Source of the DNA: Actinomycetes bacterium
Lineage (GTDB): Bacteria; Actinomycetota; Actinomycetes; Mycobacteriales; Mycobacteriaceae
NCBI GenBank assembly: GCA_022600695.1
Contig: JAHZJY010000385.1
Location: forward strand, 1-12,736
Direction of reading: 5' to 3'
Length of the DNA stretch: 12,736 nt
Position numbers and translations under genes: made by a program. The notes under the pieces were generated by a model. That model worked only from the letters and a program-made list of their open reading frames with translations. It searched no databases and was not told where the DNA came from. Positions 936 through 10,577 of the stretch are shown piece by piece. Positions within the stretch are counted from its first letter, which is position 1, and every line of letters begins with the position of its first letter.

Positions 936-1631
936 ATGCGTACTTGGCGGCCCCCCACGGTCAGAGGTCAACGCTTGCGGCGAGGGCGACTCAGTATCTG
1001 GTTCGCCTGCTTGGCGGTGCTGATCGTCTCGTGCGGAAGCACCGGAAGCACCGCGAACGCCGACGAGACGACGGCCGCACCGGAGCCTCAAAGCTCGCCC
1101 GCACAGGCAGCCGGGCCCGCGGGGACCGACGTCGTTCTCCTCGACCTCGACGATCCCGGCGCGGTGGCCGGCTGGACAACGGTCAACGACCCCGTGATGG
1201 GCGGACGGTCCACCTCGGCCGTCTCGTTCGGCGACGGCGGCCTGGTGTTCTCGGGGATCCTTTCGCTGGAGAACAACGGCGGGTTCGCCTCGGCCCGCAG
1301 CCCGCAGGACCCCGATATCGGGCGAAAAGCGACCGGCGCGACATCCCTGCGGGTGCGTGCCCTGGGCGACGGTAAGACCTACGTGCTCAGAGTGGGCACC
1401 GCAGGGCAGCCGTGGTCCTATATCCAGCGTTTCCCCACCGAGGCCGATGTCCGGCGGACCTACGACCTGCCCGTTGCGGGCTTCCAGGCGGTCGGCATGC
1501 GCCTCGATCCCGCACCCGGCGCGCCGCAGACTCTGGACCCCTCGGTCATCAGCCAGGTCTCGGTCTACATTCTGGACAAACAGCAGGGCCCCTTCACGCT
1601 GACGATCGACGCGATCGCGGCCACGGTCTGA
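936..1631 (+). CDS. CIA30-domain (NDUFAF1-like) lipoprotein
   Basis: The 231-residue protein has a basic n-region (RGQRLRRGR), a hydrophobic stretch and a lipobox IVSC with the lipidated cysteine at residue 33, so it should be a membrane-anchored lipoprotein. A Pro/Ala/Glu-rich linker leads to a domain from about residue 65 to the end. That domain carries the signature of the CIA30 family, a jelly-roll domain named for mitochondrial complex I intermediate-associated protein 30: a Trp followed by NDPVMGGRSTS, then FSGILSLENNGGFAS and a closing PFTLTID strand. The role of bacterial CIA30 lipoproteins is not established and I do not assign one. The gene converges on rpmE2 with a 45-nt gap and no clear terminator. 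The start is fixed by the leaderless promoter at 902-929. From residue 29 onward the gene was the source, or a sister, of the truncated copy at 3641-4025. Confidence 0.75.
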   Translation: MRTWRPPTVRGQRLRRGRLSIWFACLAVLIVSCGSTGSTANADETTAAPEPQSSPAQAAGPAGTDVVLLDLDDPGAVAGWTTVNDPVMGGRSTSAVSFGDGGLVFSGILSLENNGGFASARSPQDPDIGRKATGATSLRVRALGDGKTYVLRVGTAGQPWSYIQRFPTEADVRRTYDLPVAGFQAVGMRLDPAPGAPQTLDPSVISQVSVYILDKQQGPFTLTIDAIAATV

Positions 1632-1920
1632 GCGGAACTCCAGCAGCAAGCCCGCGGAGGTCGGCAACCGGGATGCTCACCGCTGCCCATAGCGGCGGCG
1701 GAACTTCTCCACCTGCCCGGCTGAGTCCAGCACGCGGTGAGTTCCCGTCCAGAAAGGATGGGAGTCCGCCGTCACGTCCACCACGATCAATGGATAGTTC
1801 CGAATCCCGTCCGGGGTTTCCCAGTCGACGGTGCGTGAACTGGTTAATGTCGACCGGCTCAGGAACGCTCTACCCGTGCCGGCGTCCTGGAAGACGACGG
1901 GATGGTAGTCGGGGTGGATG
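1019..1920. repeat. Direct segmental repeat, copy A (complete)
   Basis: This block covers codon 29 of the CIA30 gene through to the 5' end of rpmE2. It matches 3641-4168 in direct orientation. Over 1021-1313 I count about 21 mismatches in roughly 293 nt. The block 1535-1595 (61 nt) is identical to 3929-3989, and 1668-1736 (69 nt) is identical to 4056-4124. Copy A keeps all internal sequence; copy B lacks 228 nt (between two GGACCCC repeats at 1307-1313 and 1535-1541) and about 139 nt inside rpmE2 (between 1762 and 1901, joined at a GGG). Counts were made by eye. Confidence 0.85.
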
Positions 1921-1931
1921 CCTGGTTTCAT
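1677..1931 (-). CDS. rpmE2: Zinc-independent ribosomal protein L31 type B (bL31B)
   Basis: The 84-residue product begins [16 protein letters not shown], the hallmark of type B L31, and contains no cysteine, so it lacks the zinc-binding Cys motif of the ordinary L31 (RpmE). Further family features are the [13 protein letters not shown] stretch and the [20 protein letters not shown]-terminal part. It would replace zinc-bearing L31 in the large subunit when zinc is scarce and so release zinc for enzymes. Its ATG overlaps the stop of mrf by 4 nt (ATGA at 1928-1931), which implies one transcript with mrf and translational coupling. Control would therefore come from the Zur-box-like site upstream of mrf. 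A decayed second copy lies at 4065-4168. Confidence 0.95.
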
Positions 1932-3130
1932 TGTTCCTCTTCTCCGCGGGGTCGCGGTCGCGCGGTGAACTCATCGCGGACGTCAGGCAACTCCTGACAA
2001 GGATCGGCGTGCCAGTCCCCGAACGGGTCCGGGTATCGCGACCAGTCGCCGGGCCGCGCCAGTTCGTCATCAGTGAGTAGCGCACCCCGCAGGGCGCTGT
2101 CGATCTCGGTCGGGTGCGCACCGCAGACCAGCACCGTCATCGATATATGCCGGTCGCCGAACCGTTCGTCCCAACCCACCGCCGCCAGTGCCCGTCGCTC
2201 GGGGTCACTGTGGGCCAACTCCTCGGGTCCCATTGCGGCCAGCCATTTTCCGGCGTACTCGACAAGGACCCCACCGCCGGCTGATTCGATCGACATCACG
2301 TCGTCGAGCCGGTTCGCCACGAAGGCCCGGCCCCGGGTCCGGATCACCCCGTCCACCAGCATGTCGACGGCGGCGTGCAATCGCTGAGGATGGAACGGCC
2401 GCCGTGCGGTGAACTCCATGAGCGCGACTTCACCGGCCGGGTCCAACGGCGGTTGTCCGGCCAGCAGTGGGCCGTGCGGGTCGCGTCGCCTGCCGCGGCG
2501 GGTATGGGGGTCGAGGTGAACCAGCGCCTGCTCGACCCGGTCCACCCCGACGGTGATTCGCGCCAGCGGCGCCAGCCGACGCAGAATCGACAGCGTGGTC
2601 GCATCGGGCGGGCACACCACCAGGAGGTCGGCGAACTCTGCCTGGCACACGACCACCTGGGCGACGGTCCGGCCATCGTCGAGTTCATCGGATCCGATCG
2701 CGCGGCCCAGCCACGTGTGGGAGTCCACCGTTGTGACAACTGCCTCGATACACACGTCACGCCCGGCCGGGCCGTCGATATAACCGGGTCCCACGTGAAC
2801 CCCGACCTCGTTGATCGCCGAACAGACAGGTTCGGGCTCCAACCACGGTGCCAGCTGCACGACGATGCGGGTCACGTCGTCCCGTCGATGCAGTCGGCGT
2901 AGCAGCACCAGCAGGTCATTGCGGGTTGTGCAGCCGGGGCAGCCATTGGTCAGCTCCAGTGGCAGTTCGGTCGTCGACAACGTCCCGTCCCGCATGATGC
3001 TGACCCAGCGTCGCACCACCTGCCCGTCGTACTGGTGCCCGACGACCAGGGTGCCCGGGGTATTCAACAGGGTGCCCGCCAGTCGGTCACTGTCACCCTG
3101 GCCTCCAACGAGGACTACTGGTGTACGCAT
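1928..3130 (-). CDS. mrf: Mrf-type CobW/COG0523-like protein (ribosome hibernation recruitment factor)
   Basis: The 400-residue protein is close in sequence to Rv0106 of M. tuberculosis as I remember it, with shared blocks [38 protein letters not shown] and [13 protein letters not shown]. The RRPFHPQRL block is typical of the C-terminal half of COG0523 (CobW) proteins. The homologue in M. smegmatis, Mrf, recruits the hibernation factor MPY to zinc-depleted ribosomes. Two hallmarks of metallochaperone GTPases are altered: the N-terminal P-loop position reads [12 protein letters not shown] without GKT/S, and the usual CxCC reads GCPGC (Cys64, Cys67). A GTPase activity is thus doubtful. The SD-like AGAAGGCG lies just upstream of the ATG (complement of about 3133-3141), directly next to a Zur-like palindrome. 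It heads a two-gene unit with rpmE2 and is divergent from rpmB2. Confidence 0.9.
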
Positions 3131-3143
3131 TTTCGCCTTCTAT

Positions 3144-3158
3144 TGAAAATCGCTTTCA
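3144..3158 (-). promoter_or_regulatory. Zur-box-like operator of mrf-rpmE2
   Basis: The sequence TGAAAATCGCTTTCA is an inverted repeat (TGAAA / TTTCA, 5-nt centre) and resembles the mycobacterial Zur consensus of the TGAAAATGATTTTCA type. It sits directly upstream of the mrf ribosome binding site. A TANNNT hexamer that can be read on both strands (3172-3177; TACGTT on plus, TAACGT on minus) could provide a -10 element, which would place the box just downstream of the mrf transcription start. The box is convincing by sequence and context; the promoter element is a guess. Confidence 0.7.
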
Positions 3159-3198
3159 TCTAGACGTCGGATACGTTACCGTCCTTTGAGGTACTTGT

Positions 3199-3219
3199 CG
3201 ACAATGATTGTCATTTTCA
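3199..3219 (+). promoter_or_regulatory. Zur-box-like operator of rpmB2-rpmG2
   Basis: Two overlapping matches to the TGAAAATGATTTTCA type are present. GACAATGATTGTC (3200-3212) is a perfect palindrome around a single G, and the minus-strand reading of 3205-3219 is TGAAAATGACAATCA. The site lies immediately upstream of the Shine-Dalgarno GAGGGAGG (3225-3232 region) of rpmB2. Binding of zinc-loaded Zur here would silence the zinc-free L28/L33 pair. Together with the box at 3144-3158 it makes the 105-nt gap a two-headed Zur-controlled region. Confidence 0.75.
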
Positions 3220-3235
3220 TTATGAGGGAGGCCTC

Positions 3236-3472
3236 GTGGCCGCACGCTGCCAAGTGACCGGGCGCTCACCGAGTTTCGGTAATTCGGTGTCGCACTCGCA
3301 TCGGCGCACCCGCCGGCGCTGGAACCCCAATATCCAGCGCAAGACCTACTTCCTGCCGTCACAGGGGCGCAACATCACGCTGCGGGTCAGCGCCAAGGGC
3401 ATCAAAGTGATCGACCGCGACGGAATCGAAGCCGTCGTTGCCCGACTGCGCGCCGCGGGTCAGAAGATCTGA
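3236..3472 (+). CDS. rpmB2: Zinc-independent ribosomal protein L28
   Basis: The 78-residue product reads [20 protein letters not shown] and continues with [16 protein letters not shown], the standard bL28 layout. It keeps only one cysteine (Cys5), so the four-Cys zinc knot of the zinc-bearing paralogue is broken; this is the C-minus form. It would be incorporated into the large subunit under zinc starvation. The start is a GTG at 3236 with GAGGGAGG a few bases upstream, and the reading begins at the canonical MA residues of L28. Its TGA overlaps the ATG of rpmG2 by one base (TGATG at 3470-3474), so the two are translationally coupled. The Zur-like site at 3199-3219 is the likely control element. 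Confidence 0.95.
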
Positions 3473-3636
3473 TGGCCAGCACCGATATCCGGCCAGTGGT
3501 GAAGCTTCGCTCCACCGCCGGAACCGGCTACACCTACGTCACCCGCAAGAACCGGCGCAACGATCCCGACCGGTTGGTGCTCAGGAAGTACGACCCGATC
3601 GTCCGCCGGCATGTCGACTTTCGAGAGGAACGCTGA
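3472..3636 (+). CDS. rpmG2: Zinc-independent ribosomal protein L33
   Basis: This 54-residue protein reads [20 protein letters not shown], continues [20 protein letters not shown] and ends [10 protein letters not shown]. This is the bL33 family without any cysteine, i.e. the zinc-free paralogue. It closely resembles the zinc-free L33 of M. tuberculosis, including the same last residues, so the gene is complete to its natural C-terminus. It overlaps rpmB2 by one base. In related mycobacteria the next genes in this operon are rpsN2 and rpsR2. Here they are missing: 1 nt after the stop an ATG follows, and after that ATG the sequence becomes a duplicate of the CIA30 lipoprotein gene. Confidence 0.95.
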
Positions 3637-3637
3637 G

Positions 3638-3742
3638 ATGGCTGACCGTCTCGTGCGGAAGCACCGGAGGCACCGCGAACGGTTACGAGACGACGGCCGC
3701 ACCGGAGCCTCAAAGCTCGCCCGCACAGGCAGCCGGGCCTGA
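3638..3742 (+). CDS. Candidate arginine-rich micro-ORF at the rpsN2 start position
   Basis: An ORF of 34 codons starts at the ATG 1 nt after the rpmG2 stop and has a well-placed AGAGGAA ribosome binding site (3624-3630, 7-nt spacing). In relatives this would be the start of rpsN2 (S14), whose protein begins with Met-Ala. Here only the ATG, and perhaps GCT, remain. The rest reads the duplicated CIA30 segment in a different frame and gives a very basic peptide (10 Arg, 2 Lys, 4 acidic residues; RLVRKHRRHRERLR near the start). It is probably translated whenever rpmG2 is, but nothing shows that the peptide has a function or is stable. Translation is inferred from the start signals only. Confidence 0.3.
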   Translation: MADRLVRKHRRHRERLRDDGRTGASKLARTGSRA

Positions 3743-4025
3743 GGGGACCGACGTCGTTCTGCTCGACCTCGACGATGCCGGCGAGGTGGCCGGCTGGACA
3801 ACGGTCACCGACCCCGTCATGGGCGGCCTGTCCACCTCGGCCGTCTCATTCCGCGACGGCGGCCTGGTGTTCTCGGGCAGCATCTCGCTGGAGAACAACG
3901 GCGGGTTCACCTCGGCCCGCAGCCCGCAGGACCCCTCGGTCATCAGCCAGGTCTCGGTCTACATTCTGGACAAACAGCAGGGCCCCTTCGACATCGCCAT
4001 CAGCGGGATTGATGCCGCCGTCTGA
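3641..4025 (+). pseudogene. Truncated, internally deleted copy of the CIA30 lipoprotein gene
   Basis: The frame that matches the gene at 936-1631 runs through WLTVSCGSTGG, then AAPEPQSSPAQAAGPEGTDV, the motif TDPVMGGLSTS, and ends GPFDIAISGIDAAV at the TGA 4023-4025. It lacks the first 28 codons: start codon, basic region and most of the signal peptide; the lipobox Cys is still there but is preceded by RWLTV. Upstream the frame runs open into the rpmG2 region without a plausible start. Internally 76 codons are gone, an in-frame deletion between two GGACCCC repeats that removes the central strands of the CIA30 domain. Substitutions are mild and the frame is still open, so decay may be recent. 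Expression as a functional lipoprotein is unlikely. An alternative is a cytoplasmic protein started from an upstream codon in this frame, which I consider improbable. Confidence 0.8.
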
Positions 4026-4064
4026 GTGGATCTCGCAGCCGCTCAGTTTCGGCGGCCGGGATGC

Positions 4065-4168
4065 TCACCGCTGCCCATAGCGGCGGCGGAACTTCTCCAC
4101 CTGCCCGGCTGAGTCCAGCACGCGCTGGGTTTCCGTCCCGACAGGATGGGATGGTAATCGGGTTGATG
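4065..4168 (-). pseudogene. Fragment of an rpmE2 duplicate
   Basis: On the minus strand the 3' end encodes [19 protein letters not shown] and the stop, identical at the DNA level to rpmE2 over 69 nt (4056-4124 against 1668-1736). Further upstream a piece that reads HQPDYHP in another frame corresponds to the L31B N-terminal HPDYHP. The roughly 139 nt between them are missing, joined at a GGG, which also shifts the frame, and the start codon region is replaced. It cannot make L31. Confidence 0.85.
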
Positions 4169-4294
4169 AACAACGCCCCGCCCGCATTGACCCCAAGGTC
4201 GAACAACTCGACTGCTGATGGAGGCCGCAAGTGCGGTGACGCGCCAGCCTCGGTGCTAGGTTTGGCCGGCGGCGTCGAAGGAAGGTCACCCACG

Positions 4295-4957
4295 ATGAAG
4301 AGCTTGACGACGGCGGCGACTGCCAGCCTGCTCGCGGCGGTAATAGGCCTGGCGGTCGTGGGTTGTTCGACCGCGACCGAGACCCGGACCGCCGAGGAGA
4401 CGTCTGCCGCGGCCGCCGCGGACGCCGGCGAGCAGACGACGCTTAATCAGTACATCGAGGACAACGAGATCTCGGAGTTCCCGATCGAGCCGGGAGAAGC
4501 GGGGACTCCCAAGATCGACTTCCCGATCCCGGCGGACTGGCGGGTGGCCGGCGACGAGAAGCCCGAATGGGCCTACGGTGCGATCATCTACGACAAGGCG
4601 CAGGATCCGGACAATCCGCCCTTCATCTACGCGATCGGAGTGAAGCTGACTGGCGACGCCGACCCGGCAAAGATCCTTGAGTACGCCCCCGGTCAGCTCA
4701 ACAACTATCCGGAGTTCAAGGCGGTGAGCAGTCCGAAGAAGGACAGCCTGGGCGGATTCGATGCCATCAACTACGTCGGGACCTACGTGCAGGAGGGCGA
4801 GACTCGCGCCGTCGGCCAGCAGACCATCGTCATCCCCGGCACGGACGAGTTGTTTGTCCTGCAACTCAACGCCGAGGCTCCGCAGGGGCAGGAGGACGTG
4901 GTGATCGACGCGTTCAACGTCATCTCCGAGCAGACCAAGATCACCGCCCCGGCCTGA
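4295..4957 (+). CDS. LpqN/LpqT-family lipoprotein
   Basis: The 220-residue protein has a signal peptide MKSLTTAATASLLAAVIGL ending in a VVGC lipobox (Cys24), followed by a Thr/Ala/Glu-rich linker. The mature domain, about residues 48-218, shows features I associate with the mycobacterial LpqN/LpqT (Lpp-LpqN) family: YIEDNEISEFPIEPGEAG, FPIPADW, EWAYGAIIYDKA, DGFDA-like GGFDAINYVGTY and a C-terminal VVIDAFNVI. The fold is PsbP/Mog1-like; in M. tuberculosis LpqN has been linked to envelope biology and host interaction, but a precise role is not fixed. The start ATG at 4295 has a GAAGGAAGG ribosome binding site at 4277-4285. A longer open frame upstream has no lipoprotein features. A TAGGTT at 4257-4262 could be a -10 element (weak). 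It is followed after 32 nt by the next gene and may be cotranscribed with it. Confidence 0.8.
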   Translation: MKSLTTAATASLLAAVIGLAVVGCSTATETRTAEETSAAAAADAGEQTTLNQYIEDNEISEFPIEPGEAGTPKIDFPIPADWRVAGDEKPEWAYGAIIYDKAQDPDNPPFIYAIGVKLTGDADPAKILEYAPGQLNNYPEFKAVSSPKKDSLGGFDAINYVGTYVQEGETRAVGQQTIVIPGTDELFVLQLNAEAPQGQEDVVIDAFNVISEQTKITAPA

Positions 4958-4989
4958 CCGGCCGTGACCACCGACCCACGGAGCACCTC

Positions 4990-5313
4990 ATGACATTGCG
5001 AGTCAGCGCCTTACACCTCGTTCTCGCCGGGGCAGCAGCGGCGGCGTTCCTCTCGGTGCCGGTGCTCACCGCAGCGCCGGCGTATGCGGCCTGCCCGGCC
5101 GGCACCGCGGCCGATAACCGAACCGGGATCTGCTGGGACGTCTCATCGACGGGGGGGCGGCCGATCACCGGGACCGGCGGAGTGTGCCTGCCGGGCCGTA
5201 TCGGTCTGTGCATGGCGGGGTTGCAGAATTCGGCGCTGCCCGGCGCCGCCCTGAAGCCCATGCCCGCGGCGGGGCCGGCACCGAGAGTCGGGCCGCAGGG
5301 GTCGTGGCCGTGA
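4990..5313 (+). CDS. Small secreted four-cysteine protein, unknown function
   Basis: The 107-residue product has a Sec signal peptide with a hydrophobic core (LVLAGAAAAAFLSVPVL) and a likely cleavage after AYA (33/34). The mature chain of about 74 residues contains four cysteines (35, 48, 66, 74), which could form two disulfides outside the cytoplasm, and is rich in Gly, Pro and Ala toward the end. I do not recognise a family. The start ATG has GGAG at 4980-4983, a 6-nt spacing. It lies 32 nt after the LpqN-type gene and may share its transcript. The gene faces the end of the znu operon, which stops at 5463. The 149-nt gap between them shows no convincing terminator or gene. Confidence 0.6.
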   Translation: MTLRVSALHLVLAGAAAAAFLSVPVLTAAPAYAACPAGTAADNRTGICWDVSSTGGRPITGTGGVCLPGRIGLCMAGLQNSALPGAALKPMPAAGPAPRVGPQGSWP

Positions 5314-5462
5314 TGACCCCGTCCAGCAGCATGAGGAAAGATCAGGTCCAGGCACGTCACCGGGGGGTCGGTTCAGCAGCGGCGCCAGGTGGCAATGGCT
5401 ATCACGAACGCACGCGCGATGGCGCTATTGCCGTTCGCGGCTCCTGATCGGAGGTCTGTCAG

Positions 5463-6194
5463 TCAGAACTCGTACGGATTCTCCGGCGCCTCGACGGGTG
5501 TCACCGCGGATGCCGTCAGAATCGGGACCGACAACCCGGCGACGTCGGAAGGCTGGGGCTCCACTGTGCCCTCCACCCGCACCCAGGTTTCCTCGGCGTA
5601 GCCGGCGGCTTGCTCTGCTGCCGGGCCACGAAGGTGCACGCGGGTCAGGTGGGCGTCGGCTGCGCAGCAGATCATGACGACCCGTCCCAGGTCGATCCCG
5701 CCGCGGTCCTTCAGGGTGAAGCCGGTGACGGTGATCAACCGGCCCTCCAGAGTCTTGGCCGAGTCCCGATTCGCCCGGATCACCACTTCCGGCAGCGGCA
5801 GTTCCGGTGCGTGACCGGCGGGTAGCGGTGGAAAGGGGCGGGACAACACCGTGCGTGAGGCGTCACCGGCGGTGGGCTCGGACGCCCGCGCACCCAGCGC
5901 CGGCGGCACCACGAAGCCCAGCAGCAGGACGGGCAGCGCCAGCAACCAGACCACTGCCGACCGGTGCCCGTGATCGACATCGTCGTGCTGATCCGCGTCA
6001 TCGCCGCGGCGCCGGTGATTCCGGAAATCCCGAACCATCGCGAACGCCGCGAGCGCGATGAGCAGAATCGCCGTCACCACCAACCATGGCATCAGGGACG
6101 GCTTGACGTACCGGGTGTAGGTTCCGGTCACAACGATGATCGCCGTACAGACGCCGATCAACAGCAGCATGACGTTCTGGGCTTCCCGGCTCAA
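5463..6194 (-). CDS. TIGR03943/DUF1980 membrane protein, partner of the COG0701 permease
   Basis: The 243-residue protein has two N-terminal membrane segments (about residues 8-28 and 34-53), a hydrophilic linker rich in His and Asp ([14 protein letters not shown], about 65-78) and a third segment (about 80-100). An external domain of about 130 residues follows and contains VMICCAADA, a Cys-Cys pair typical of the YcgQ-like / DUF1980 group (COG3689). In other bacteria this protein is encoded next to a COG0701 permease, as here. Its start overlaps the permease stop by 4 nt (ATGA), so the two are coupled. Substrate is unknown; the position after znuACB and the His-rich linker suggest a link to zinc or another metal, which is inference. 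It is the last gene of the five-gene minus-strand operon. Confidence 0.8.
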
Positions 6195-7192
6195 CGGGCA
6201 CCCCCCAGGAACAGCAGCCCAACCACCGTCGCGACCACCGTCGCGACAACGAACGTCGTCGGGGCGAAACGCATGGCGAACGCGCGGCCGAACATGCCCA
6301 CCTGCATCGCAAACAATTTGACGTCCACGGCCGGCCCCACGACCAGGAACACCAATCGCGGCAACAACGGCAGCATGGTCAGGCTCGCCGCCACGAACGC
6401 GTCCGCCTCCGAGCAGAGCGCCAGCACGAACGCCAGAATCGCCATGGTGAGGATGCCGAGTAACAGTTGGCCGGCCAGATGCTCGTAGACCGCCGACGGC
6501 ACCAGCACGTTCAGGGCCGCCGCGGTCGCCGCGCCGAGCACCAGATACGAGGCGGCCTGCAGGAAGTCGTGCCGTGCGGCCTCAGTGAACATGGTCCACT
6601 TCGAACCGCCGCCGTGATGTGCTCGCGGCAGCAGCCGGGTGATCCACTCGGAACGACCCCAGCGTGACCACACGGCACCCATGACGACCGCGGTGAGCAG
6701 GGACGCCGTGAACCGAGCACCGACCATGGCGGGTTCGCCGGGAAAGGCCACCGCCGTCGATACCAGGACCACCGGATTGATGGCCGGCGCCGCGAGCATG
6801 AAAGTCAGGGCAGCAGCACCGCGACGGTCGTTCGACTCAGCGTCGCCGAACAACCTGCGGGCCACCGGAACCGCTCCACACTCGCAGCCCGGTAAGGCGG
6901 CGCCCCCCACCCCGGCGGTCAGGATCGCCGCACCCGTTCGCCGGGGCAGCCAGCGAGCCAAACGGTCCGGGGAGACATACGCCGCGATCAACCCGCTGAT
7001 CACCACACCGAGAGCCAAGAAGGGCAGCGCTTGGACGAAGACCCCGCAGAACACCGTGGCGGCGGTCGCCAAGTCCGGCCGCCCCACCACGAAACCCCGA
7101 ATTGCGCCGCCGAACAAGGCCATGACGACCAGGGCCGCGACGAGGACCTCCATCGACCCGCCGAATCGCCGACGCACGGCCCCGGCTACCAC
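6191..7192 (-). CDS. DUF318/COG0701 permease (YraQ/ArsP_2-like)
   Basis: The 333-residue protein has about eight hydrophobic segments. It shows family signatures: PGCECGAVPVARRL around residues 101-114 with Cys103 and Cys105, LAAPAINPVVLVSTAVAF after it, and CSEADAFVAAS in the second half. These half-repeat motifs place it with the DUF318 permeases. Proteins of this group have been linked to arsenical or metal transport, but substrate and direction are unknown for this branch. The start chosen is a GTG 18 nt after the znuB stop, preceded by a GGGGCG-like sequence; an internal ATG at codon 14 (MEVL, base 7153) is an alternative. It sits between znuB and the TIGR03943 partner, so it is likely expressed with the zinc importer. 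Confidence 0.8.
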   Translation of the reverse strand: MVAGAVRRRFGGSMEVLVAALVVMALFGGAIRGFVVGRPDLATAATVFCGVFVQALPFLALGVVISGLIAAYVSPDRLARWLPRRTGAAILTAGVGGAALPGCECGAVPVARRLFGDAESNDRRGAAALTFMLAAPAINPVVLVSTAVAFPGEPAMVGARFTASLLTAVVMGAVWSRWGRSEWITRLLPRAHHGGGSKWTMFTEAARHDFLQAASYLVLGAATAAALNVLVPSAVYEHLAGQLLLGILTMAILAFVLALCSEADAFVAASLTMLPLLPRLVFLVVGPAVDVKLFAMQVGMFGRAFAMRFAPTTFVVATVVATVVGLLFLGGAR

Positions 7193-7210
7193 TAACGCCC
7201 CATCAGCGCG

Positions 7211-8128
7211 TCACCGGTGGCTGTGGTCACCGAAACTTCGTTGATTCTCGGTGATCGCAGCCGACATCCGTTGTGCGGCCGCGGATCGTGGCCGGACGTG
7301 CCGTTCAACCAGCCAGGCAATCAACCACACACTGCACGCGATCGTGACGATGACGAAGCTGGGCGGCAAGTTGAACATCGCTGACAGGACGACACCGAGC
7401 CACACCGACACCAAGCTGATCGCGGTGGAGATGATCATCGCCGTGGGCGGTTTCGGCGTAAGCATGATCGCTGTCGCGGCAGGGGTGACGACAAGCGCGA
7501 AAAGTAGCAGCGTTCCGACTGCCTGTACCGCCATGGTCACGGCCAACCCGAGCAGCGCCATGAAGATCATCGACAACCAACGCACCGGCAGCCCCTTGGC
7601 CTCCGCGACTTCGGCGTTGACCGAGCTGTACAGCAGGGGCCGATAGATCAAGGCGATGCTCACCGCCAGCAACACCAGCAACACGGCGAACGTCACGAGT
7701 TGTTCGTGGGAGATGGCCAGCAGATTACCGAACAGGACATTTGTCATCGTGCTCGACGATTTCGTCGCCAATGAGTTGAAGAACAGTCCGAACCCGGTTG
7801 CCAGGGCGAGGACGGTGCCGGTGGCCACCTCACGGTCGGATCGGCGGGTACCGAGCACCCCGATGACCAACGCTCCGCCGACGCAGAACACGCCGAGACC
7901 CAATGCGGTGGGGACCCCGAGAAGCACCGCGCCGGTGGCGCCGGGCAGACCGATGTGGGCCAGTGCGTGGGCAGCGAACGCGGTATTGCGGACGACGACG
8001 AAGTAGCCGATCAAGCCCGCAGCGAGGGCGACGATCGTGCCGCCAGCCAAAGCGTTCTTCATGAACGGCGACGTGAGGATCGGCCACCAATTGTCCTGGT
8101 AGCCGATGGCCAGCACGGCGGTCGTCAT
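7211..8128 (-). CDS. znuB: Zinc ABC transporter permease ZnuB
   Basis: The 305-residue integral membrane protein belongs to the ZnuB/MntB/TroC permease family (COG1108). Seen are about eight to nine hydrophobic helices and family-typical stretches FVVVRNTAFAAHALAHIGLP, with the conserved Ala/His region after the second helix, and AEAKGLPVRW, followed by LLFALVVTPAATA in the translocation part. It forms the membrane channel of the uptake system with ZnuC bound on the cytoplasmic side and ZnuA delivering metal from outside. Its ATG overlaps the znuC TAA by one base (TAATG, 8126-8130). The C-terminal tail ends in a short GDHSHR. Zinc rather than manganese is assigned from context, i.e. zinc-type regulators and zinc-free ribosomal proteins nearby. 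Confidence 0.9.
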   Translation of the reverse strand: MTTAVLAIGYQDNWWPILTSPFMKNALAGGTIVALAAGLIGYFVVVRNTAFAAHALAHIGLPGATGAVLLGVPTALGLGVFCVGGALVIGVLGTRRSDREVATGTVLALATGFGLFFNSLATKSSSTMTNVLFGNLLAISHEQLVTFAVLLVLLAVSIALIYRPLLYSSVNAEVAEAKGLPVRWLSMIFMALLGLAVTMAVQAVGTLLLFALVVTPAATAIMLTPKPPTAMIISTAISLVSVWLGVVLSAMFNLPPSFVIVTIACSVWLIAWLVERHVRPRSAAAQRMSAAITENQRSFGDHSHR

Positions 8129-8913
8129 TACGTGCTCCTCATGTATAACTCGCCCTGCGGTGTGCGGACGACTTGGATCGGGGTGCCATACAGATGGGTG
8201 AGCAGTCTTTCCTCGACCACGCCGTCCAGGGTGTCGAAGTGGGCGTGGCCGTCCAGCAGGTAAATTGCGCTGCTCAGCACGCTCAACAGTGGGTTCAAAT
8301 CGTGCGCGACGACCAGGATCGTCACACCGAGTTGCTGGTTGATCCGCCTGAGCAGTTCAACGATCTCGCGCTGATTCCGCAGATCCAACGCCGCCAGCGG
8401 CTCGTCGAGGATGAGAATCTTCGGATATGCGGCCAGCGCCTCGGCGATCGCCACCCGCTGACGCTGCCCGCCGGAAAGCTCGGAGAGCCGTCGTCGGGCC
8501 AATGACCCTGCATCCACCGAGTCCAGCACCTCGGCGACCCGCCGGCGTTCCTCGCCGGTGGGGCGTCCGAAGGCCCACCGAGTTCCGTTGAGGCCCAGCA
8601 TGACGGCATCGCAAACACGGATTGCATCCCCGGAGGATGACGCATAGTTCTGCGGCACATAGCCGATGGACTCGTTGACCTCGCCGGGCGGCTTCCCCAG
8701 CACCCGCACCCGACCGGACGCGGTGGGCATCGATCCGAGGACCACATTCAGCAGGCTGGTCTTACCTGAGCCGTTCGATCCGATAACCGCCACAATCCCA
8801 CCGGCAGGAACCTCAAAGGTGCCCTCCGACCAGATCAGATTCCCCCCGCGCACCACGCTGACGTCGTCGAAACTCAGCGCGGGAGCGGTGGAGTCGGGCT
8901 CACCCAGCGACAC
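8128..8913 (-). CDS. znuC: Zinc ABC transporter ATPase ZnuC
   Basis: The 261-residue protein has every core element of an ABC ATPase: Walker A GSNGSGKTS (about residues 45-53), a Q-loop YVPQNY (about 85-90), the signature LSGGQRQR (146-153), Walker B ILILDEP (166-172) with the D-loop LAALD, and the switch His in VVAHDLNP. It would hydrolyse ATP to power uptake through ZnuB. The GTG start at 8913 lies inside the 3' end of znuA (14-nt overlap), typical of a translationally coupled operon. The first 13 residues are hydrophilic and variable; no better downstream start is seen. Substrate assignment rests on the neighbours. Confidence 0.92.
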   Translation of the reverse strand: MSLGEPDSTAPALSFDDVSVVRGGNLIWSEGTFEVPAGGIVAVIGSNGSGKTSLLNVVLGSMPTASGRVRVLGKPPGEVNESIGYVPQNYASSSGDAIRVCDAVMLGLNGTRWAFGRPTGEERRRVAEVLDSVDAGSLARRRLSELSGGQRQRVAIAEALAAYPKILILDEPLAALDLRNQREIVELLRRINQQLGVTILVVAHDLNPLLSVLSSAIYLLDGHAHFDTLDGVVEERLLTHLYGTPIQVVRTPQGELYMRST

Positions 8914-9838
8914 CGAGCGCCTTCGCCAGAGCGTTCAACTGGTCGACCTGCCAGGTCTCGAACGAAGTGGTTCCCGGCGGCACCGTCTCGGTGACCTCGA
9001 CCACCGGCACGTTCGCAGCCGCGGCAGCCGAACGGATCTGCTCAGGTACCGATCCTTCAGTCTGCGTGTTGTAGATCAGAACATCGATTTGGCGATCGGC
9101 CAAGGCGCTCCGGAAAGCTTCCAGATCCGCCGGCGAGGGATCGGAGTCGTTCGCCGACGCCGTCTGATAGCCCGCCGGCGTCTTATCCACCAGGCCGACA
9201 GCCTCCGCGGTGTAATCGAAGACGCTCTCGGTCGCCGCATAGGTCTTGCCCGCCGCGCCCGCCTTGATATCGCCGAGCAACGCGTCATAGGGCTCAAGGC
9301 TGGTACTGAAAGCGGCCCGTCGGTCGGCGAAATAGCTCTGCGCTTCCGGCGCCAGTTTCTCCAGTTCGGCAGTGACGGCGTCCGCGACCGCGACCACCGC
9401 AGACGGGCGGTACCAGAGGTGCGGATTGGACCCCGCGGGGGTCTCGGTCACCACGCCGGCATCCACAACCGGTGCCTTCGGAGCGGATGTTGCGGCGAAC
9501 TTCGACGCCCACGGGTCGTACCCCGCTCCGTTGACGACGACGAGTTGGGCCTTCGCGAAGGTCGCGGCATCCGCCGGTGAGGGTTCGAATTCGTGCGGCT
9601 CGACCGCGGAACTGGCCAGCACCGTCTTCACCTCGGCGCAATCACCGCCCAACTCCTGGACGATATCGCCCCATTGATCCACGCTCACCACGACATTGAC
9701 TGGCGCGGTCGGACATTCTCCCGCCGGCGCGCCGGTGTCCCGTCCGTCGCGCGAGGAGCATGCGGACAATCCGAGAGGGGCGACGAGTGCGATGGCCGCC
9801 GCCGCAGCGCCGATCATTCGAGGTCGATGAGCATTCAC
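8900..9838 (-). CDS. znuA: Zinc ABC transporter substrate-binding lipoprotein ZnuA
   Basis: The 312-residue protein carries a signal peptide with lipobox LSAC (Cys27) and belongs to the cluster A-I metal-binding proteins (ZnuA/TroA family). Candidate ligands are His82 in EPHEFEPSP and His140 in NPHLWYRP. The third ligand position, usually a His before an aromatic Gly-Tyr motif, reads ATESVFDY with Glu204. There is no His-rich loop between the first two ligand sites, unlike enterobacterial ZnuA; that segment is short. The GTG start at 9838 sits 8 nt downstream of a TACTAT -10 hexamer, so the transcript may be leaderless. It is the first gene of the operon znuA-znuC-znuB-permease-TIGR03943 and is divergent from the SmtB-type regulator. 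Zinc as substrate is strongly suggested by context but not shown by the site itself. Confidence 0.88.
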   Translation of the reverse strand: MNAHRPRMIGAAAAAIALVAPLGLSACSSRDGRDTGAPAGECPTAPVNVVVSVDQWGDIVQELGGDCAEVKTVLASSAVEPHEFEPSPADAATFAKAQLVVVNGAGYDPWASKFAATSAPKAPVVDAGVVTETPAGSNPHLWYRPSAVVAVADAVTAELEKLAPEAQSYFADRRAAFSTSLEPYDALLGDIKAGAAGKTYAATESVFDYTAEAVGLVDKTPAGYQTASANDSDPSPADLEAFRSALADRQIDVLIYNTQTEGSVPEQIRSAAAAANVPVVEVTETVPPGTTSFETWQVDQLNALAKALGVAG

Positions 9839-9846
9839 AATTGGTA

Positions 9847-9865
9847 ATAGTAACCGTTTTCAATA
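9847..9865 (-). promoter_or_regulatory. znuA promoter with Zur-like element
   Basis: On the minus strand TATTGAAAACGGTTACTAT runs across this site. Its first nine bases (TATTGAAAA) are the same as in the mrf operator, and the core TGAAAACGGTTACTA keeps the left half of the Zur-type palindrome but only part of the right half. The last six bases, TACTAT (9847-9852), fit a -10 element 8 nt before the GTG start of znuA. A repressor here would cover the -10. The match is weaker than the two boxes at 3144 and 3199. Confidence 0.5.
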
Positions 9866-9940
9866 GCGGTTCGCATCGGCGGGTGCGAACCCGACCCGGG
9901 TGCCCGATCGGTGCTGGCCTCGCCCTCCCGGAGGCGCGTC

Positions 9941-10280: not shown

Positions 10281-10577
10281 ATGACGCACGCAGTTCACAC
10301 CGATCACCCGCACGCCCACACAGCAACCTGTGGACACGCCGCGGTGCAGCACGGCGACCACGTGGACTACCTCCACGACGGACACGCCCACCACCAGCAC
10401 GCTGATCACTACGACGAATGTGATGTCTCCGATCTGCATGCCACCGCCGAAGATCACTCCCTTCACCAGCACGGGCCGGACTGCGGCCACGAGGCGGTAC
10501 AGCACGGCGACCACGTCGACTACCTCCATGACGGCCACCGCCACGCGGCACACGCGGATCATTACGACGAACACTGA
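10281..10577 (+). CDS. Histidine-rich two-repeat protein, candidate zinc buffer
   Basis: This 98-residue protein has 27 His, 15 Asp and 3 Cys (17, 47, 68). It consists of two 30-residue repeats, residues 17-46 and 68-97, identical at 26 of 30 positions; each begins CGH, contains QHGDHVDYLHDGH and ends HADHYDE. A His-rich leader and a linker (DLHATAEDHSLHQHG) surround them. There is no signal peptide or membrane segment, so it should be cytoplasmic. Similar HGDHVDYLHDGH-type proteins occur in other bacteria near metal transport genes, sometimes annotated vaguely as zinc transport proteins. The ATG follows the regulator stop by one base and has GGAG at 10269-10272, so the two form an operon. 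If the regulator is released by zinc, this protein is made in zinc excess and could store or buffer it. That function is inference. Confidence 0.85.
   Translation: MTHAVHTDHPHAHTATCGHAAVQHGDHVDYLHDGHAHHQHADHYDECDVSDLHATAEDHSLHQHGPDCGHEAVQHGDHVDYLHDGHRHAAHADHYDEH
10329..10571 (+). repeat. Internal tandem duplication in the His-rich gene
   Basis: Bases 10329-10418 and 10482-10571 encode the two 30-residue repeats, with a period of 153 nt. The DNA is well conserved too (for example GTGGACTACCTCCA against GTCGACTACCTCCA), so the duplication is either recent or held by strong selection. Confidence 0.85.

Follow-up and report, generated by a model that had tools for sequence, protein, structure and literature searches.

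The small-subunit half of a zinc-free ribosomal-protein operon is lost, as judged at the level of sequence, from the window, which is the whole 12,736-nt stretch of DNA analyzed here and comprises all of contig C74 of the source genome G000 (2.82 Mb, 401 contigs, 85.8% complete). In all likelihood, the window carries a Zur-type mycobacterial zinc-free operon (rpmB2-rpmG2-rpsN2-rpsR2, beside mrf and rpmE2) whose small-subunit half has been destroyed, with the apparent start of rpsN2 and the 3' end of rpsR2 remaining as scars. A survey covering 148 genomes sampled from the larger genus further showed that rpsN2-rpsR2 have been lost many separate times, with rpmB2 and rpmG2 being kept.

The window begins, from left to right, with an Rv2525c-like gene and an intact gene for a CIA30-domain lipoprotein (936..1631, + strand; PF08547, E 4e-28; repeat family D1), in which a lipobox-like LIVSC was read from the sequence and which is the parent of a duplicated segment described below. 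These are followed by rpmE2 (1677..1931, − strand; NCBIfam type B L31, 116.9 bits; PF01197), encoding a zinc-free L31 with no cysteine, and mrf (1928..3130, − strand; NF047431, 529.9 bits vs. a cut-off of 375), encoding a GTPase that recruits a ribosome hibernation factor. On the + strand, rpmB2 (3236..3472; TIGR00009, zinc-free L28) and rpmG2 (3472..3636; TIGR01023, zinc-free L33 with no cysteine) are adjacent and overlapping, and both lack CXXC (3236-3636). Candidate Zur boxes are present upstream of rpmB2-rpmG2, in the divergent promoter region between mrf and rpmB2, where two Zur-box-like sites (3141-3164 and 3193-3216) each carry three mismatches to the published consensus of 24 positions (PMC4298942), the score being a sequence match only. 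Elsewhere in the window, one equally good site was found (9845-9868), beside znuA. The order after rpmG2 is an insert, an rpsR2 remnant, two permease genes, znuB, znuC, and znuA on the − strand, and an arsR-type regulator gene; ZnuA is a Pfam match, and the znuB and znuC labels (7211-8913) were read from the sequence. Beside the arsR-type regulator, two 91-nt repeats that are 80% alike (10328-10571) encode a histidine-rich stretch, possibly of a metal-binding protein.

The nearest row to the window on a tree of Mrf, L28, and L33 was G081 (SH-aLRT 100), in which rpsN2-rpsR2 are intact at this place. Window positions 1670-3642 are colinear with G081 at 84%, and positions 5335-9864, including the gene for a TIGR03943 permease subunit (5463..6194, − strand; 170 bits), align with G081:C105:47859-52425 at 80%, both flanks lying on one G081 contig. 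Between the flanks, G081 has 448 nt holding rpsN2 together with the 5' portion of rpsR2, and the window has 1692 nt instead. The first-pass annotation had proposed that rpsN2-rpsR2 normally follow rpmG2, as is indeed the case in 63 of 88 loci including that of G081, and that a duplicate of the neighboring block had overwritten them here. This description fits rpsN2, which is absent downstream of rpmG2, so that the window lacks the four-gene arrangement, but the last 37 codons of rpsR2 survive at 5335-5445. That close relatives might never have had the two genes here is contradicted by G081, and no strain was seen to combine the duplication with intact genes, since a CIA30 match stood beside an rpmG2 match only in G000 among 61 genomes. 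The left edge of the locus has been rearranged too: window 936-1670 holds the CIA30 gene and Rv2525c-like gene, whereas G081 has a CobW-like GTPase gene (assigned by likeness) after rpmE2.

The rpsR2 remnant (5335..5445, + strand; alignment with G081) has no start and a changed ancestral stop. An in-frame TGA lies just upstream, the 5' part is absent, a PF01084 match at 5332-5430 (34.8 bits) contains one TGA, and 7 of the 37 residues differ from those of G081. With homology but no complete reading frame, the remnant is a predicted pseudogene. Its dN/dS against G081 was 0.26 (37 codons), compared with 0.03-0.13 for intact rpsR2 in nine control pairs of relatives (ten were chosen, and G124 was skipped for want of a locus). 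However, L33 ranged over 0.07-0.28 in the same nine pairs, and the neighboring TIGR03943 gene of the window gave 0.35 in the comparison with G081. The rate by itself is therefore no proof of decay, for which the truncation is the stronger evidence. Between the window and G081, dN/dS was 0.05 for L28, 0.05 for L33, 0.09 for L31, and 0.18 for Mrf; L28 and L33 of the window are thus under constraint.

The rpmG2 stop TGA (3634-3636) is followed by a G and an ATG (3638-3640), and position 3641 begins a direct 295-nt copy of 1019-1313 with 21 mismatches (93%, offset 2622), a match that rules out chance similarity. A repeat search and an alignment both confirmed this base-sharp junction, which had already been reported after an ATG one base past the rpmG2 stop. 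The ATGGC fused to the copy (3638..3642, + strand) is apparently a leftover of the rpsN2 start, to judge from the alignment with G081, which reads GTGGCCAAGAAATCC here. The degraded CIA30 copy (3641..4034, + strand; repeat families D1 and D3; alignment) is missing the start codon and signal peptide of its parent and carries a 228-nt in-frame deletion at a shared GGACCCC, after which it continues as a copy of 1535-1640 (84%) and then of 1661-1763 (93%). The degraded rpmE2 copy (4049..4168, − strand; repeat family D2; alignment) consists of a 3' part and a 5' scrap with the middle deleted; PF01197 positions 39-65 match 4074-4154, and the scrap, read by eye, is a short part of the rpmE2 start (~1900-1921) at ~4147-4168. 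A duplicate of 1019-1920 had been described, and a copy containing CIA30 and the rpmE2 end is real, but it is interrupted by two internal deletions, the second inside rpmE2, and ends near 4168.

Divergence between the two copies is patchy: 16 of the 45 mismatches in 502 compared nucleotides fall within one 40-nt stretch, a density reached in none of 2000 shuffles, and long identical stretches adjoin the dense patch. A strongly diverged patch (1595-1660 vs. 3989-4048) was noted between identical stretches of the copies. In comparison with the CIA30 genes of G027 and G028, the ancestral-looking residue is sometimes in the copy and sometimes in the parent (by eye), and local sequence exchange between the copies is possible. 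The internal deletions, the patchy divergence, and the mixed ancestral residues indicate that the duplication is neither recent nor clean. The CIA30 copy still has an open frame and a dN/dS of about 0.6-0.7, and it has therefore not been simply neutral throughout.

The rest of the insert (4169-5334) is non-duplicate and consists of an lpqN-like gene, a gene for a small exported protein, and spacers. The lpqN-like lipoprotein gene (4289..4957, + strand) matches PF10738 (E 3.1e-43) and scores 243 bits against NF052551, under the cut-off of 250. The small exported-protein gene (4990..5313, + strand) has no family match in Pfam or NCBIfam; it pairs with lpqN in relatives, adjoining it in 7/7 mapped lpqN loci (L073-L078 and the genome's own C271; loci L079-L083 are omitted from this count). 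The lpqN paralogue at C271 of G000 is 72% identical at the nucleotide level, and descent of the pair in the window from the C271 pair as a recent copy was rejected as too distant (72% nucleotide and 56-58% amino acid identity). A search of the insert for traces of a second mrf, rpmB2, or rpmG2 gave nothing (E 1e-4), and region 3100-5500 contained neither promoter-like nor terminator-like sites, against 0.3 and 1.4, respectively, in shuffled sequences.

A two-step route, duplication followed by a deletion accompanied by arrival of the lpqN segment, likely accounts for this structure. Illegitimate joining at ~2 nt of homology (by eye) would bring the sequence from 1019 onward to the start of rpsN2, the outcome expected of a tandem duplication of unit 1019-3640 (2622 nt). 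Subsequent deletion, together with the arrival of the lpqN segment, would then eliminate the remainder of the second unit along with rpsN2 and the greater part of rpsR2. The earlier suggestion that a duplication across the locus replaced the genes is right in that the source of the copy lies on the opposite side of the locus; however, only ~530 of the 1692 inserted nucleotides are duplicate, so a second event (the lpqN segment and a deletion into rpsR2) is required.

A search of G000 for cysteine-free rpsN and rpsR, proposed in the first-pass annotation, found a single S14 gene, zinc-binding (CNRC...CRIC), and a single intact S18 gene, also zinc-binding (CVFC); no full-length zinc-free S14 or S18 was found among the matches listed for this 85.8% complete assembly. 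A primary (zinc-binding) L33 gene was likewise not found in G000 but was present in 33/33 other genomes tested, and in view of the incomplete assembly the absences in G000 are provisional. A 63-nt stretch at C151, 84% like rpmB2, suggests that primary L28 is present. Since the only S14 and intact S18 found are zinc-binding, zinc starvation would likely lead to the replacement of only L28, L33, and L31 by zinc-free forms, with S14 and S18 staying zinc-binding; the large-subunit-only remodeling anticipated for this strain, should the two genes not be elsewhere, is what these findings most directly predict.

Among the 148 genomes, 88 contained a zinc-free L33 gene and none was found in the other 60 (E 1e-10); a 49% match (G096) was excluded as zinc-free, a 72% partial match (G094) was included, and one of two L33 loci in G023 was used. 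Absence from four in ten sampled species is more than the accessible parts of the literature would suggest. With thresholds of at least 130 bits for zinc-free S14 and at least 76 bits for zinc-free S18, the matches listed reach the primary-type range and cover full-length zinc-free genes, perhaps not short fragments. Among these matches, 65 of the 88 genomes had full-length zinc-free S14 and S18 genome-wide, and 23 were without at least one (14 without both, 6 without S14 only, and 3 without S18 only); G000 apart, these 23 are 96-100% complete. At the operon itself, 63 of 88 loci were intact, and rpsN2 and/or rpsR2 were missing, broken, or moved in 25. The two departing loci beyond the 23 genome-wide losses belong to G122, in which the operon is split (L119, L120) into rpmG2-rpsR2 and zinc-free L28 with rpsN2, ~540 kb apart, and to G094 (73% complete), in which rpsR2 is internally deleted and an S18 scored as zinc-free lies on another contig.

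The departing loci took diverse forms. G020 (L102) has an in-frame rpsN2-rpsR2 fusion of 96 codons, ~28 from S14 and then most of S18, and in G064 a 31-codon frame joins the rpsN2 start to the rpsR2 tail. G082, G100, and G170 have lost rpsN2 with rpsR2 present, and G121 has a frameshift. In G013 (L100), a new 100-codon frame with no Pfam match exactly replaces rpsN2, starting with ATGGCC and with an intact rpsR2 behind it. A WhiB-family gene starts at the rpsN2 position in G126 (L111), G131 (L113), G146 (L116), and G162 (L117), assigned by a Pfam match for the G131 protein and by likeness for the other three; the presence of such a regulator gene in the downstream part of a Zur-type operon seems worth study. 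A WhiB-like gene was also observed after rpsR2 remnants in G064 (L104) and G105 (L109). Nothing was recognized in place of rpsN2-rpsR2 in G007, G012, G015, G129, and G132. Beside 21 of the 25 departing operons there was an Mrf match of at least 374 residues; G097 had a fragment, G035 and G122 had none, and in G094 the stretch was too short.

A tree of Mrf, L28, and L33 was built by a quick method for 80 of the 88 loci, with SH-aLRT support only and with the root not inferred; G035, G097, G122, G023, G079, G102, G161, and G094 were left out for a missing or short Mrf match, and G090, which has no L33 locus, lies outside it. The intact and non-intact states require at least 13 changes on this tree, 10 of which are forced by strongly supported branches, and the minimum is 12 for rpsN2 alone and 10 for rpsR2 alone. 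Matches to S14 and S18 lay beside the operon in 12/12 loci from Rhodococcus, Prescottella, Nocardia, Saccharopolyspora, and Pseudonocardia, so the changes are most simply losses. G131 and G146 have one common junction; most simply, their ancestor was already without both genes. Between these two genomes, dN/dS since the loss was 0.16 for L28 and 0.22 for L33 (few changes each) and 0.14 for Mrf, and between G162 and G131 it was 0.07, 0.02, and 0.12, respectively.

Several other explanations were weighed, three of which bear on G000. An assembly artefact, in which unrelated pieces were joined into the contig and the true genome has both genes intact, could be entertained for a single contig of an incomplete draft in 401 pieces with repeats of ~300 and ~100 nt at the junction. 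It is nonetheless highly improbable: the flanks are colinear with one G081 contig and about equally identical to it (84% and 80%), which means that proper neighbors meet across the insert, and a chimera was rejected on this ground; moreover, the repeats are 93% alike rather than identical, and the rpsR2 remnant has seven amino acid changes of its own and a changed stop. Persistence of rpsN2 and rpsR2 in an unassembled part of G000 is unlikely, if less so. The 14% of the genome missing from the assembly and the failure to find primary L33, a sign that the assembly may miss genes, speak for it, as does G122, whose rpsN2 in a second operon demonstrates that splitting can occur. On the other hand, a full-length copy at another site was found for just two of the 25 departing loci, rpsN2 in G122 and, by score, rpsR2 in G094, and 23/88 genomes are without a full-length copy of at least one gene among the matches listed. 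Retention of rpmG2 and rpmB2 as housekeeping genes after loss of the zinc-binding copies, which the missing primary L33 of G000 would fit, has a slightly smaller chance still. Primary-type L33 was found by score in G081 and in 22/22 other small-subunit-loss genomes tested, where rpmG2 is therefore not kept as the sole L33, and the C151 stretch points to a primary L28 in G000. The idea that rpmG2 was kept because primary L33 was lost was rejected on the 33/33 genomes above.

The remaining alternative concerns the whole genus and has a little under an even chance of being right. It holds that rpsN2 and rpsR2, being promoter-distal, were hit by random deletions eroding the operon end, with nothing specific to the small subunit; loss of a gene close to the promoter would be apt to shut down the entire operon. 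Position alone predicts that the reverse pattern should be rare, and among the matches listed zinc-free S18 without zinc-free L33 occurred in 1/60 genomes (G090) and zinc-free S14 without it in 0/60. The end-of-operon position may explain part of the asymmetry between L33 without S18 and the reverse. However, an ATG or GTG persists at the rpsN2 start position in 16 of the 21 loci where rpsN2 is not whole, which is a gene-precise pattern. In addition, 7 of the 21 (G013, G020, G082, G100, G121, G122, and G170) keep the last gene, rpsR2, essentially whole, and it is the inner rpsN2 that is lost, broken, or moved (by in-frame fusion in G020), and no such loss was seen in the 12 related-genus loci. 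On balance, we lean slightly toward the reading that zinc-dependent remodeling is modular, with many lineages having independently become large-subunit-only, keeping zinc-free L28 and L33 (mostly with Mrf) and discarding zinc-free S14 and S18. If this modular reading is true, the 30S subunits of those lineages are zinc-binding, and both zinc sparing and hibernation through Mrf must function with such subunits. Weak selection on zinc-free S14 and S18, their cost, or their operon position are candidate causes of the loss. The four-gene operon has hitherto been treated as a conserved unit, and natural losses of its small-subunit half separate the two halves, providing comparative material on whether zinc-free S14 and S18 or the large-subunit proteins are behind hibernation, altered growth, and zinc sparing.

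No report of recurrent rpsN2-rpsR2 loss was found among the titles and abstract openings listed by searches of open-licence literature. The altRP operon of M. smegmatis and M. tuberculosis (S14-2, S18-2, L28-2, and L33-2) has the same gene order as the window up to rpmG2, and the Zur-box-like sites and divergent mrf are shared features; the window differs in that rpsN2 and most of rpsR2 are replaced by a CIA30-rpmE2 fragment and the lpqN pair. According to the accessible text of PMC13418864, mrf lies in the operon region of M. smegmatis, and remodeling and Mrf/Mpy hibernation are described there. The consulted portion of PMC5912738 names M. leprae as the sole mycobacterium without the operon; in the M. 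smegmatis study reported there, the four-gene operon was deleted whole. The present survey departs from this published picture, as far as the accessible text gives it, in which nearly all mycobacteria have a four-gene operon. The same portion describes M. avium strains with an operon truncated to two genes, and the table in PMC4298942, in the part consulted, gives M. avium L33 as MAV_4876, no rpsN2 counterpart, and MAV_0076 (84.6%) as rpsR2, far away by number. The truncated M. avium operon resembles the window in that two of the four genes remain, but it is a separate case, and remnants, junctions, and recurrence do not feature in the accessible part of its description. M. leprae, in which all zinc-free ribosomal paralogues are absent according to the accessible text of PMC5912738, is like the window in that the loss occurred in a genome far smaller than those of its relatives (2.82 Mb assembled for the window's genome vs. 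6.5 Mb for G081). Unlike M. leprae as portrayed there, the window has lost the small-subunit half alone, and its L28 and L33 are still constrained.
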